A DNA stretch of 64,000 bases from Pandoraea capi (GTDB lineage: Bacteria > Pseudomonadota > Gammaproteobacteria > Burkholderiales > Burkholderiaceae). The notes beneath the pieces were generated by a model. It had not been told where the DNA came from. It made no database searches and worked only from the letters and a program-made list of their open reading frames with translations. Position numbers and translations under genes: made by a program. The number at the start of each line of letters is the position of its first letter. The first letter of the stretch is position 1. The stretch covers positions 620,001 through 684,000 of the forward strand of contig NZ_CABPRV010000001.1 in NCBI RefSeq assembly GCF_902459735.1, in the 5' to 3' direction. This document shows positions 5,258-14,625 of the stretch, one piece after another.

Positions 5258-5334
5258 GGCGAATTAGCTCAGTCGGTTAGAGCGACGGAATCATAATCCG
5301 CAGGTCCGGGGTTCGAGTCCCTGATTCGCCACCA
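5258..5334 (+). tRNA. tRNA-Met (anticodon CAU, elongator type)
   Basis: A 77-base cloverleaf with encoded CCA. The acceptor stem GGCGAAT pairs with ATTCGCC. The D arm has GCTCAGTCGGTTAGAGC, the anticodon loop reads ATCATAA (anticodon CAT at 5291-5293) and the T arm CCGGGGTTCGAGTCCCTG is standard. The first pair of the anticodon stem is an A-C mismatch. The loop and stems resemble elongator tRNA-Met rather than the initiator. An Ile2-type CAU tRNA is the alternative and was judged less likely. Its 3' part doubles as the left attachment repeat of a genomic island, and the intact gene is retained. Confidence 0.95.
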
Positions 5335-5337
5335 AAT
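5288..5337 (+). repeat. Left attachment repeat (attL-like), 3' part of tRNA-Met
   Basis: These 50 bases, from the anticodon arm to three bases past CCA, are identical to 14576-14625. The match ends sharply at both sides. Such duplication of a tRNA 3' end is the standard mark left by integration of a tyrosine-integrase element. Confidence 0.92.
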
Positions 5338-5341
5338 GCGA

Positions 5342-5376
5342 AAGCCCTGTAAATCTCTGATTTACAGGGCTTTTTC
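5342..5376 (+). terminator. Strong terminator directly after tRNA-Met (island-borne)
   Basis: A perfect 14-bp stem (5342-5355 with 5359-5372, arm AAGCCCTGTAAATC) with loop TCT runs straight into TTTTTC. It starts four bases inside the island, so the element replaces the tRNA's displaced terminator. Confidence 0.9.
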
Positions 5377-5381
5377 ACTAA

Positions 5382-5416
5382 GGGCTCTGCGGCTTCGCTG
5401 CGAGCCCTTTTCTTTT
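5382..5416 (+). terminator. Second, tandem terminator inside the island's left end
   Basis: The arms GGGCTC (5382-5387) and GAGCCC (5402-5407) enclose an inner helix capped by a TTC loop. TTTTCTTTT follows. It lies ten bases after the first terminator. Confidence 0.75.
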
Positions 5417-5478
5417 ACCGGCTCCTCACGGTGCAAATTCGCTGCAATACGCGGTGCAGACCTCAAGGAAGGAGCACC

Positions 5479-11344: not shown

Positions 11345-11357
11345 GATTGGGTGCTCC

Positions 11358-12794
11358 TCAGATTTGGCTGATGAATTTGTTGGTGAGATAGAACTCGATG
11401 CCTTCGGCGCCACCTTCGGAGCCAATTCCGCTTTCCTTGAGCCCGCCGAAAGGAAGTTCGGTGGACACGATGCGGTACTGGTTTATGCCAATCATCCCGG
11501 CTTCCAGCCCGTCGCCAACGTCGAGGGCGGTGCGCGCGTTGTTCGTGAACGCATAAGCCGAGAGACCATACGGCAGGCGGTTCGCTTCGGCGAGGCCGTC
11601 TCCCAGTTGGTCGAAACGCATCAGCAGCGCGATGGGACCGAACGGCTCCTCGTGCATCACGCGGGCGTCCATCGGCACATCGGCAAGTACGGTCGGTTCG
11701 AAGAAGTAGCCGTCACCCGCGATGCGCTTGCCGCCGACCAGCACCTTTGCGCCGCGCGCCACCGCATCGGCGACGAGTTCTTCCATCTTTGCAACCTGCC
11801 GCGGATTCGCGAGCGGGCCGACCTGCGTGCCGGGCTGCATGCCATCGCCCACCTTGAGCGCCTGGGTCGCGGACACGAAGTGGCCAACGAACTCGTCGTA
11901 GACCTCGCGCTGAATCAGGAAGCGCGTCGACGAGATGCAGATCTGGCCGGTGCCGCGGAATCGGTTCGCAGCGCCTTCGACAGCAGCACGTTCGACGTCG
12001 GCGTCCTTGAACACGAGCACGGGGCCGTGGCCGCCGAGTTCAAGCGTAATAGGTTTGACGCCTTCGGCGGCCCGCGCGGCGAGCAGTCGGCCAATAGGAA
12101 CGGAGCCCGTGAACGTCACCTTGCGGATAATCGGCGATGCAATCAGAGTCTTCGACACCTCATCTGGTACTCCGAAGACCACCTGCAGCACGCCCTTGGG
12201 TAAACCTGCATCGTCGAGTGCGCGGGCGAGCGCGAGCGCAGTTGCGGGGCTTTCCTCGCCCGGCTTGATAATGACGCTACAGCCGGCAGCCAGCGCCGCC
12301 GAAAGCTTGCGGGCAGGCGTGATTGCCGGGAAATTCCACGGCGTGAAGGCGGCGACCGGCCCGATGGCCTGCTTCTTCACCAGTTGTTGCACGCCCGGGC
12401 GATTCGACGGGACAACGCGACCATCGATACGACGCGCCTCTTCCGCGAACCATTCGAAGTATTCGGCTGCACGCAGCACTTCATCGCGGCTCTCGGCGAG
12501 AGGCTTGCCTTCTTCCAGCGTCAGCAGCTCGGCAATGTGAGCGGCACGCACACGAATCAAGTTCGCGCCATCTTTTAGAATACGTGCGCGCTCCGCCGGC
12601 ACAGTGTTGCGCCACACGTCGAACGCGTGCTTCGCTGTCTGCAACGCCTGCTCAAGGTCAGACGCCGTTGCAAGCGGTACGCGGCCCAGTTCCTGCAACG
12701 TAGCGGGATTAACGACAGGAGCGGTATCGCGTTCGCTGGCAGCAATCCATTCACCATTGATGAAAAGAAAGAGGGAGTCGTAGTGAGCGGTCAT
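11358..12794 (-). CDS. NAD(P)-dependent aldehyde dehydrogenase, succinate-semialdehyde dehydrogenase-like
   Basis: A 478-residue aldehyde dehydrogenase. The general base is E252 in ITLELGGHGP and the catalytic cysteine is C286 in GTGQICISSTR. AAFTPWNFPAITPARKL and PGEESPATALALA belong to the cofactor site, and EEPFGPIALLMRF is the conserved C-terminal segment. Length and motifs are closest to GabD-type succinate-semialdehyde dehydrogenases, but substrate assignment within this family is unsafe. It is first in the operon with the CMD-like and quinone-oxidoreductase genes, divergent from a LysR gene. Confidence 0.9.
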   Translation of the reverse strand: MTAHYDSLFLFINGEWIAASERDTAPVVNPATLQELGRVPLATASDLEQALQTAKHAFDVWRNTVPAERARILKDGANLIRVRAAHIAELLTLEEGKPLAESRDEVLRAAEYFEWFAEEARRIDGRVVPSNRPGVQQLVKKQAIGPVAAFTPWNFPAITPARKLSAALAAGCSVIIKPGEESPATALALARALDDAGLPKGVLQVVFGVPDEVSKTLIASPIIRKVTFTGSVPIGRLLAARAAEGVKPITLELGGHGPVLVFKDADVERAAVEGAANRFRGTGQICISSTRFLIQREVYDEFVGHFVSATQALKVGDGMQPGTQVGPLANPRQVAKMEELVADAVARGAKVLVGGKRIAGDGYFFEPTVLADVPMDARVMHEEPFGPIALLMRFDQLGDGLAEANRLPYGLSAYAFTNNARTALDVGDGLEAGMIGINQYRIVSTELPFGGLKESGIGSEGGAEGIEFYLTNKFISQI

Positions 12795-13151
12795 TTTTTC
12801 AACCTCAATATACTTAGTAATTCGAATTAATTAACATTGATGCCTAGGCGGATAACTGGCTTCTCCCGGCATGGTAAGGTCATGCGACGCTAGAGAAGTG
12901 GCTTTGGCTTACGGCTGTCAATGAGTGCCTGTCTGCGGAACCAAGTCTAGGCGAGATGCCTCCCCGGTTTTAGGCAGGGCAGAAAGAATGATTCTTTCCG
13001 TGAGAGGGAAAATCCGTGCACTCTGACCGGTTACGCTTACCGACACATCATGCGGCGCTTGCCGATGATGGGCGGGCGCCCGTACACCGTGGCACGTGGA
13101 CCGCACGGCGCGGAACCGAGATGATGAATTAAGACGAATGGGACGGATAAG
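12795..13151. promoter_or_regulatory. Divergent promoter region of island module 2, with palindromes
   Basis: These 357 bases separate the aldehyde dehydrogenase operon from its divergent LysR gene. Two symmetric elements are visible. One is a 12-bp palindrome TAATTCGAATTA at 12818-12829, only 24 bases from the dehydrogenase start. The other is an inverted repeat GAAAGAA-TGA-TTCTTTC at 12984-13000. Both are candidate operators. No clear -35/-10 pair could be assigned. Confidence 0.5.
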
Positions 13152-14108
13152 ATGGACAAGTTATATAACATGTCGGTTTTTGCAAAGGTTGTCGAAATGG
13201 GGAGCTTCACTGCGGTTGCGAACCACCTCGACACGACTGTAGGAAACATTTCGCGCGCTGTTTCGGTGCTCGAGGAGTCGCTGGACACCCGGCTCATGCA
13301 GCGCTCGACGCGTCGTCTTGTCATCACCGACGCAGGACGGCGGTTCTACGACCGGTGCGTGGCCATCCTGACCGACGTGGAGCATGCTGAGGCCGAGGCG
13401 CGGGACGCCCTGCTGGAGCCGCGCGGCACGTTGCGCGTTCACTCGGTGCCCGGACTTGGACGCCACCTGGTGACTCGCGCCGTTATGGCCTACCGCAACT
13501 CGTATCCGGAGGTCTCGGTCGACCTCCTGCTGTCCCAGCGCATGCCGAATCTGCTCGAGGAACAACTTGACGTCGGTATTGTGATTACACGAACGCTGCC
13601 CGATTCAGCCTACGTCAGCCAGAACATAGGCACCAGCCATTGCATCCTCGCAGCATCACCTGAGTATCTGGCAGCGCATCCGGCGCCGACGTGCCCGGAA
13701 GACCTTATCGACCATCACTGCGTTCTGCTCGGGACAGTCGATTACGCGCCCGACGAGTGGCGCCTCGAGAGCGTTGCTGGCAACGCTACCTTCCGCCCGA
13801 CCGGGCCAAGCTTCAGCGTCAACGATATGGACGCTATGTCACAAGCCCTTCGAGATGGGGCCGGCATCGGCCTCCTTGCAGCGTTCTCAGCGATGGATGA
13901 CCTGCGCAGCGGCGCGCTCGTTCGCGTGCTGCCGCAGTACCACACACACGTCCGCAATGTCTACGCCGTGTATCCGTCGCGCCAGTTCGTTGACGCGAAA
14001 ATTAAGCGATTCATCGAGACGTTAAACGTCCATGTCGGAGAGCATCTGGACGCTTACGCGAGAGAGCTCGGCCTCGCTCCGGCCACAATCCTGTCCGCAG
14101 GTCGCTAA
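13152..14108 (+). CDS. LysR-family transcriptional regulator (island module 2)
   Basis: A 318-residue LysR-type regulator. The winged helix-turn-helix (about 1-60) reads MSVFAKVVEMGSFTAVANHL and RAVSVLEESLDTRLMQRSTR, followed by an effector-binding domain (TLRVHSVPGLGRHLVTRAV, LVRVLPQYHTHVRNVYAVYP). It belongs to the CrgA/DsdC-like branch, as does the module 1 regulator, but the two proteins differ throughout. It is divergent from the aldehyde dehydrogenase operon and is its probable regulator. The ATG at 13152 is weakly served by a GGACGGATAAG stretch. Confidence 0.92.
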   Translation: MDKLYNMSVFAKVVEMGSFTAVANHLDTTVGNISRAVSVLEESLDTRLMQRSTRRLVITDAGRRFYDRCVAILTDVEHAEAEARDALLEPRGTLRVHSVPGLGRHLVTRAVMAYRNSYPEVSVDLLLSQRMPNLLEEQLDVGIVITRTLPDSAYVSQNIGTSHCILAASPEYLAAHPAPTCPEDLIDHHCVLLGTVDYAPDEWRLESVAGNATFRPTGPSFSVNDMDAMSQALRDGAGIGLLAAFSAMDDLRSGALVRVLPQYHTHVRNVYAVYPSRQFVDAKIKRFIETLNVHVGEHLDAYARELGLAPATILSAGR

Positions 14109-14575
14109 ATTTAGGTACCGTGAGACTGCGCGAAAGCCGCCGAGTCGCTGTATCTGGCGAGCACTCACCCGACGGTGCTGACGAACTGGGCGATCCCTGC
14201 TCCGTTGTATGATGCAGTTTGACGTTTTCCCGAGACCTTCCTCGGCCGATCGCAACTCAGAACTCGAGAGATCGTCGACGGTAGCGCGCCGCACCGTGTA
14301 AAACTGCCGACGCATCTGTTCATCTGTCGCCTAGCAGGACCTCGACCGACATTCGTGCCGCGGCGGCGGCCGACCGCTTCGGGTCGATCAGTGACGTTTG
14401 ATATATCCGGCCATACACACTCCTTCGTCCCCTGTTCTCAGTGCACCGGAAGTGCAGTAGCCAGTTTTTTCGCTTGCCCGAAATTACGCTAAACTACTGA
14501 CACTAAACAACTTTTGATTTCGATCGTTTACGGTCAGATTGCGTTATTTTTCAAAAACTTACCGCGTCACACGCC
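14109..14575. other. Non-coding right end of the island
   Basis: These 467 bases between the LysR stop and the right attachment repeat carry no supported gene. Frames are short, with no ribosome-binding site or recognised family. The sequence grows AT-rich toward the repeat (14460-14560). It may hold decayed mobility DNA. Confidence 0.5.
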
Positions 14576-14625
14576 GAATCATAATCCGCAGGTCCGGGGT
14601 TCGAGTCCCTGATTCGCCACCAAAT
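14576..14625 (+). repeat. Right attachment repeat (attR-like), partial tRNA-Met copy
   Basis: This is an exact 50-bp copy of 5288-5337. It holds the 3' side of the anticodon arm, the variable loop, the T arm, the 3' acceptor strand and CCA, but no 5' half, so it cannot be a functional tRNA. It marks the right end of the island. Confidence 0.92.

Follow-up and report, generated by a model that had tools for sequence, protein, structure and literature searches.

Cis-mobilizable elements (CIMEs) are a known kind of genomic element that keeps both repeat copies (attL and attR) after the integration gene has been lost, carries only cargo, and occupies a tRNA 3' end that is an insertion site for other elements as well. 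Their co-mobilisation after accretion is described in PMC5704250. The pheV-tRNA islands of E. coli, according to PMC11537424, are integrase islands that share one tRNA, vary in their cargo and include stabilised forms, in which stabilisation is tied to lost or mismatched direct repeats. The island considered here, in a 64,000-nucleotide stretch of Pandoraea DNA (the window, to which all coordinates refer), resembles the pheV islands in each of the former respects and, judged from its sequence, fits the description of a CIME. However, its cargo joins DNA resembling two bacterial classes and, unlike the pheV islands as far as that source portrays them, its repeats are perfect and it is the integrase that was lost. 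A CIME would also derive from an ICE or IME that had transfer genes, a descent that is conjectural here; conjugation genes were not met in the ORF lists and scanned parts of the related islands L033, L051 and L214. The titles and abstract openings of the papers that a search on Pandoraea genomic islands, tRNAs and integrases turned up make no mention of the island. The mechanism itself is already known, and this is a clear but ordinary immobilised genomic island. Its interest is that Pandoraea islands sharing these ends hold defence genes in one species and, here, metabolic genes resembling those of another bacterial class, that the left junction can be resolved to a few bases, and that the tRNA-Met site is a convenient place to study the fixation of islands.

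The tRNA-Met site and the island ends

ARAGORN finds a single tRNA in the window, an intact tRNA-Met (CAT) at 5258..5334 (+ strand), the likely integration target. The 3' part of this gene plus 3 nt makes up the left (attL-side) copy, at 5288..5337 (+), of an exact 50-nt direct repeat whose right (attR-side) copy lies at 14576..14625 (+), 9.24 kb away between copies; the right copy, where ARAGORN shows no tRNA, lacks the tRNA 5' half. An earlier note made from the letters alone had placed the DNA in the Burkholderiaceae, which is right, the host being a Pandoraea, and had described exact repeats bracketing the region with the tRNA intact on the left and a copy without its 5' half on the right, a description that these searches bear out. 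No other direct-repeat family of at least 20 nt was found in 4000-16000 (seed 12). A search of the 5.85-Mb genome with a 35-base core of the repeat, allowing up to 3 mismatches, gave two matches, each of them exact, and its reversed control gave 0 matches in the same genome. Immediately right of the island stands a terminator-like hairpin (14626..14664, +; -21.8 kcal/mol, z -6.8), which lies directly 3' of the tRNA in several unoccupied congener sites and is displaced rightwards here.

In 9 of 29 congener loci the joined flanks of the window align across the join, the tRNA 3' end leading directly into the right flank, with the best continuous unoccupied site in G025 (554 nt at 83.5%), and the right-flank gene lies at most 1.1 kb from the tRNA in 8 of the 29. 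Several of the nine continuous loci carry other insertions further right. The cargo of the window was found at this place in none of the 29 loci, as far as these were fetched, in a count from which LysR matches below 45% identity had been dropped beforehand. The island reading holds because nine loci are continuous across the join and none carries the cargo. The empty site that the earlier note had proposed to look for therefore exists in congeners, and the opposite pattern that it had envisaged, the same genes in conserved synteny in all relatives, was not encountered at these loci. Four of the 29 (G005, G009, G010 and G029) have two repeat copies around other insertions at this tRNA, and in G009 the site is occupied in tandem. 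Three other Pandoraea and two other genera have relatives of the element itself at this tRNA.

The left end of this island family (5338..5597, +) is shared with G005 (97.7%), G010 (96.9%) and G009 (96.5%) over 257 nt and with the two other genera at 89% and 87%, and it contains a terminator-like hairpin (5338-5376; -23.3 kcal/mol, z -8.1). The right end (14381..14575, +) is 99.5% identical to that of G005 over 196 nt and 81% identical to that of G010 over the last 97 nt. The flanking gene, by comparison, is 88.6% identical to that of G005. The G005 island (L033) occupies the same tRNA site and also has a broken integrase, which stops after about 79 residues beside an IS256-type (Transposase_mut) gene. 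However, it is 14.2 kb long and carries QatABCD together with GmrSD_N and FRG proteins, whereas the cargo of the window is metabolic; since defence genes stand there instead, the cargo lying between these common ends has been exchanged. The G203 island (L214), from another genus of the family, lies at the same tRNA-Met site with a left end at 89% and a right end at 85% across 185 nt, a span that takes in the repeat, but it has 5.4 kb between its repeats and an intact 350-aa integrase. With tRNA 3'-end repeats at both borders, an unoccupied site and an integrase (fragment) beside the tRNA, all marks of genomic islands, the reading of the region as an integrase-type island at a tRNA 3' end is supported.

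The integrase fragment and its relatives

The fragment at 5479..5616 (+) matches G005, G009 and G010 at 97.6% over 42 aa, and it was named an integrase by homology to longer copies, no PHROGs family model having scored for it in the right frame. It runs from an ATG at 5479 to a stop at 5616 and has 45 residues: 40 native ones that follow the longer integrases, then five contributed by the junction, the break at codon 40 being also the start of Pseudomonas-like DNA. The integrase N-terminus of the earlier note is confirmed, with 45 residues where the note gave 46. A tblastn search with the intact G203 integrase against 5001-15000 returned one match, this fragment, in an alignment that is carried past that point as far as residue 68 (66%); the native sequence stops at residue 40, at the junction. 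The full integrase that the earlier note had suggested searching for is represented by longer copies at the same tRNA in relatives and, in full length and intact, in G203.

All four Pandoraea copies of the gene are interrupted, at differing positions, and the intact copy belongs to another genus. In G009 the interruption lies 74 bases before a contig end, and the lesion there may be an artefact of where the assembly stops. Integrase decay, tallied by eye over 46 rows, was counted in 6/13 against 1/33 (Fisher p = 0.001), a contrast that is overstated because a closer query finds broken copies more easily. Integrase loss might be the rule for this tRNA-Met family, with islands locked by independent lesions and then serving as pinned docking sites with exchanged cargo, but we consider this doubtful.

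Two segments of cargo

As judged from sequence matches, the interior is a chimera of Pseudomonas-like and Pandoraea-like segments between the ends of a Pandoraea island. The first segment (5593..9640) matches P. asturiensis (L124) at 88.5% over 3,910 nt; 14 further Pseudomonas loci match at 86-90% over parts and L127 at 78%, among the best 28 loci listed. It opens with the 3' remnant of a Pseudomonas-like gene (5594..5665, +), its last 23 codons and stop, truncated at the junction. This remnant aligns over 75 nt at 85% with positions 990-1064 of P. fuscovaginae L126, a locus in which the ORF is readable from end to end, and by resemblance the gene may be a flavodoxin-like quinone reductase. 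There follow LysR-type regulator 1 (5734..6687, -; PF03466, PF00126), an amidohydrolase of the PRK08204 subfamily (6762..8180, +; NF006056 414 bits, cut-off 391; PF01979), a YdcZ-family (DMT) membrane protein (8192..8665, +; PF04657) and an SMP-30/gluconolactonase-like (SGL) protein (8705..9565, +; PF08450). Among the best 80 of 111 protein matches, identities are 91-95% in 15 Pseudomonas loci, 88% in L127, 64% in a second, distant Pseudomonas group and 58-59% in two Pandoraea proteins. In a tree of 78 rows the amidohydrolase groups with 14 Pseudomonas rows (support 100/99), nested among Pseudomonas. An origin as an old Pandoraea cluster was rejected on this disparity between the two genera and because the 31 congeners offer nothing better than a 67% stretch, which covers the amidohydrolase gene.

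The second segment (9913..14061) matches contig C3 of G029 (L108, reversed) at 85.4% over 4,156 nt, where it sits at another place, and G002 (L109) in pieces at 75% and 72%. It holds a PIG3-family NAD(P)H quinone oxidoreductase (10014..11000, -; TIGR02824 356 bits, cut-off 296.8), a carboxymuconolactone decarboxylase (CMD) family ORF (11015..11425, -; PF02627) whose true start is probably further in, an aldehyde dehydrogenase (11358..12794, -; PF00171) with SSADH as its top model but below cut-off (TIGR01780 508 bits, cut-off 646), and LysR-type regulator 2 (13152..14108, +; PF03466, PF00126). The two regulator-plus-enzyme modules seen in the earlier note are therefore both LysR-plus-enzyme modules, with the small CMD-family ORF as an addition, and its label of catabolic derives from protein families only. 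The source of this second segment was probably another Pandoraea; it is present in 3 of 31 congeners, in one as a piece only, and since the search lay within the order, an unseen donor may exist elsewhere. Matches to its flank in G029 turn up in 30 of 32 genomes, many of them partial or distant, and no donor site was found through it across the 32. Between the segments, 9641-9912 is partly assigned, 9643-9794 matching G020 at 85.5%, and 14062-14400 gave only itself and one weak 51-nt match against 32 Pandoraea genomes.

Assembly and possible residual mobility

Taken as a whole, an island inserted by an integrase, given a chimeric metabolic cargo, cut in its integrase and now fixed is a highly probable explanation. 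A tyrosine integrase of the kind intact in G203 inserted an element into the tRNA-Met 3' end, leaving the complete tRNA on the left and the 50-bp copy on the right, a reading supported by the repeats, unoccupied sites and shared ends. In the interior, as the sequence matches show, a Pseudomonas-like LysR/amidohydrolase/YdcZ/SGL cluster is now fused to a Pandoraea-like LysR/ALDH/CMD/quinone-oxidoreductase cluster; its donors and the order of events are putative. With its integrase severed at codon 40 by the left junction, the island presumably cannot excise by its own enzyme. It would stay in place as a fixed set of metabolic genes, and any movement would require a matching integrase acting in trans on the preserved ends. 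The earlier note had the island captured and then deprived of mobility with its cargo kept. The insertion and the integrase loss stand, but the proposed order is conjectural: the integrase breaks off exactly where the cargo is joined on, so cargo gain and integrase loss may be one event. The cargo is not a single block, a Pseudomonas-like segment being joined to a Pandoraea-like one. No intermediate forms of the island occur among the relatives compared.

A different origin of the right repeat copy, as the remnant of an ordinary tRNA duplication with old chromosomal genes in between, had been named in the earlier note for the copy at 14576. Such duplications occur and survival of a 3' half alone would suffice, but on its inner sides the repeat adjoins stretches of 196-257 nt that in other genomes are part of an integrase element; together with the unoccupied sites and the absence of the cargo from all 29 congener loci as far as fetched, these shared ends make duplication extremely improbable, and both it and a conserved chromosomal gene block were rejected on this evidence. 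Closer to an even chance, though somewhat short of it, is that the cargo came first, a complete element with both modules having integrated and a later deletion having taken out most of the integrase, as far as the last codons of the Pseudomonas-like gene. This deletion would produce exactly the observed junction, but no further element-interior gene is seen, and between the matching ends of the sister island lie unrelated defence genes, so replacement is an equally simple account.

Fixation of the island would be incomplete if its ends, as in a CIME, were still recognised by the integrase of another element and excision occurred at a low rate. The identical repeat copies, the preservation of both ends and the tandem occupation in G009 are consistent with such mobility in trans, which nevertheless seems rather unlikely: the host genome has three matches to the integrase at E 1e-20 or better, namely the fragment, a 31% relative and a 65% cousin by a different tRNA-Met (contig C14), and neither of the latter belongs to the same subfamily, of which no other member was found in the host at that threshold. 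The G203 integrase matched no plasmid within a strict limit of E 1e-60, and matched 24 phage records at the likewise strict limit of E 1e-40 or better, all below 60% identity.

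Occupation of the tRNA-Met site in congeners

The 9.24-kb island lies between two 50-bp repeat copies (5288-5337 and 14576-14625) that an earlier note on this DNA described as identical, and an exact match was confirmed, with the repeat core present in two copies in this Pandoraea genome. The same note placed a tRNA on the left only, which also held: the left copy forms the 3' portion of a complete tRNA-Met gene (CAT; 5258-5334), and the right copy has no detectable tRNA. Loci were fetched from 29 of the 31 congeners (G003 and G030 were left out, the G030 tRNA being on a 4.6-kb contig; for G004 the sole fetched contig is the one bearing the second repeat copy). 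When the tRNA side of the window was joined to the right flank with the island removed, these joined flanks aligned across the join, reaching at least 34 nt past it, at 9 of the 29 loci, so that the empty site proposed by the note was found in relatives. The alignment runs from the query start in eight of these (L037, L038, L041, L042, L043, L047, L048 and L054) and from query position 241 in L060. The best (554 nt, 83.5% identity) is that of G025 (L038), also the top congener for identity of the right-flank proteins. The possibility of conserved synteny was likewise addressed, and none of the 29 loci, over the stretches fetched and with LysR matches below 45% identity dropped, carried the window's cargo at the tRNA. 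These comparisons support site-specific integration at tRNA-Met.

The right-flank gene (15676-16515), which we take to be TerC-like, is separated from the window's right repeat copy by 1.05 kb. At 8 of the 29 loci (L035, L036, L039, L041, L047, L050, L055 and L056) it starts no more than about 1.1 kb beyond the tRNA. At the other loci the distance is larger (L038, 1.6 kb; nine loci, 2-6 kb; five loci, 12-16.5 kb) or the gene has no match within the fetched stretch (L034, L043, L059, L061 and the continuous locus L060); the L046 contig lacks a tRNA. That this gene is so often far from the tRNA or unmatched shows other insertions to be common at the site, and among the nine continuous loci, five (L037, L042, L048, L054 and possibly L043) contain extra DNA to the right. 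The hairpin directly after the tRNA in several unoccupied sites lies, in the window, beyond the right end of the island, which carries an additional hairpin of its own.

Other elements were also observed here. L034 (G009) and L045 (G029) each carry an element at the tRNA-Met 3' end, bounded by repeat copies at a spacing of 13.6-14.2 kb. The L034 element is filamentous-phage-like and encodes a Zot-domain protein together with a tyrosine integrase; the ORF starts in L045 are similar. In G009 the Zot-domain element is in tandem with an integrase element related to the window's island. A 463-aa ORF directly after the tRNA in L040 (G018), split in L044 (G016), suggests a third element type.

Mixed cargo between shared ends

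The cargo of the window's island is mixed in make-up. The first segment (about 5593-9640), encoding LysR, amidohydrolase, YdcZ and SGL family proteins, shows 86-90% identity to 15 Pseudomonas loci among the best 28 loci listed, the best match covering 3.9 kb in a single piece, and 78% to P. capsici. The second (9913-14061; quinone oxidoreductase, CMD, ALDH and LysR families) shows 85.4% identity to contig C3 of G029, at a place other than the tRNA locus. Its identity to G002 is 72-75%, and in G020 a piece containing the regulator of this segment lies near a match to 9643-9794. These three of the 31 congeners gave the best matches among 121 relatives within the order. GC content is 57.2% in the first segment, 61.1% in the second and 63% outside. 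We infer the probable donors of the segments from these best matches and from one tree (78 rows), in which the amidohydrolase of the window clusters with 14 Pseudomonas rows at 100/99 support, apart from the two Pandoraea rows. At the left junction, positions 5594-5665 hold the last 23 codons of a neighbour gene whose complete frame is readable in P. fuscovaginae, indicating a break inside that gene; this remnant and the integrase sequence overlap by a few bases. The label 'catabolic' in the earlier note is a fair guess from gene families.

Over its left 257 nt the island shows 96.5-97.7% identity to G005, G010 and G009. At the right end, identity is 99.5% over 196 nt to G005 and 81% over the final 97 nt to G010. 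Ends at 97.7% and 99.5% in G005, against 88.6% for a flanking gene, suggest that the ends passed between lineages after the species split. Any left-end match was found in 28 of 299 genomes in the family search, the window's own counted. In six of them, 257 or more of the 260 nt matched at no less than 87% identity: the window, G005, G010, G009, and G203 and G329 from two other genera. At the tRNA-Met of G203 the repeat occurs twice, with a spacing of 5.4 kb and 2 mismatches in the second copy; 18 kb of G329 sequence yielded no second copy. The G005 island contains four adjacent ORFs (L033, 9189-13910) matching QatA, QatB, QatC and QatD (E-values 1e-119, 2e-31, 9e-100 and 4e-73), and also encodes GmrSD_N and FRG proteins. 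The same ends around unrelated interiors in the window and G005 point to cargo exchange between shared ends. Two further loci, L062 (G009:C1:898971-899108) and L063 (G018:C1:5488166-5488303), carry a lone tRNA 3'-end copy fused to 86 nt resembling the island left end (90%); neither locus yielded a tRNA.

Probable loss of self-mobility in the window's island

The reported integrase N-terminus corresponds to an ORF from 5479 matching three congener integrases, of 45 residues rather than 46; the first 42 are shared at 97.6%, and native sequence extends up to codon 40. From this fragment we infer that the island has probably lost self-mobility. Of the earlier proposal of capture followed by mobility loss, integration and the integrase fragment are backed, but a one-step replacement, in which cargo gain and integrase loss may have been a single event, is equally compatible with the data. 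Alternatively, cargo may have arrived first, with a later deletion removing most of the integrase. The island may still be mobilised in trans. Apart from a descent from an ICE or IME, which is conceivable, it fits the description of a cis-mobilizable element (CIME) in PMC5704250, and is a further example of an already known kind of element.

Integrase state across copies

In G005 the integrase runs for 79 residues, followed by a Transposase_mut gene, presumably IS256-type; the remainder was not found within 19.5 kb. The G010 copy, covering residues 1-344, is interrupted by a single in-frame stop that follows codon 272, 5' of what we take to be the catalytic C-terminal part. That of G009 is broken after residue 176, 74 bases from the contig end, and could reflect an assembly end effect. 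G329 has a frame change and G203 an open frame of 350 codons. Among cousin integrases (55-66% identity), those on contig C14 of the window's own genome and in G006 are open, those of G008, G014, G015 and G028 are broken or partial, and that of G025 is undecided, as the contig ends there. Leaving aside fragments G009:C13 and G025:C27, 3 of 13 copies are intact, nine broken or truncated and one undecided. Of the 13 rows with at least 55% identity, 6 had a stop within the match, compared with 1 of the 33 with less than 50% (Fisher p = 0.001), a contrast tallied by eye from 46 rows and overstated because a closer query finds broken copies more easily. Recurrent integrase loss is the part that a specialist might pursue. 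The intact cousin on C14 (L112, 9776-10888; 62-65% identity) adjoins another tRNA-Met gene, close to where the contig ends.
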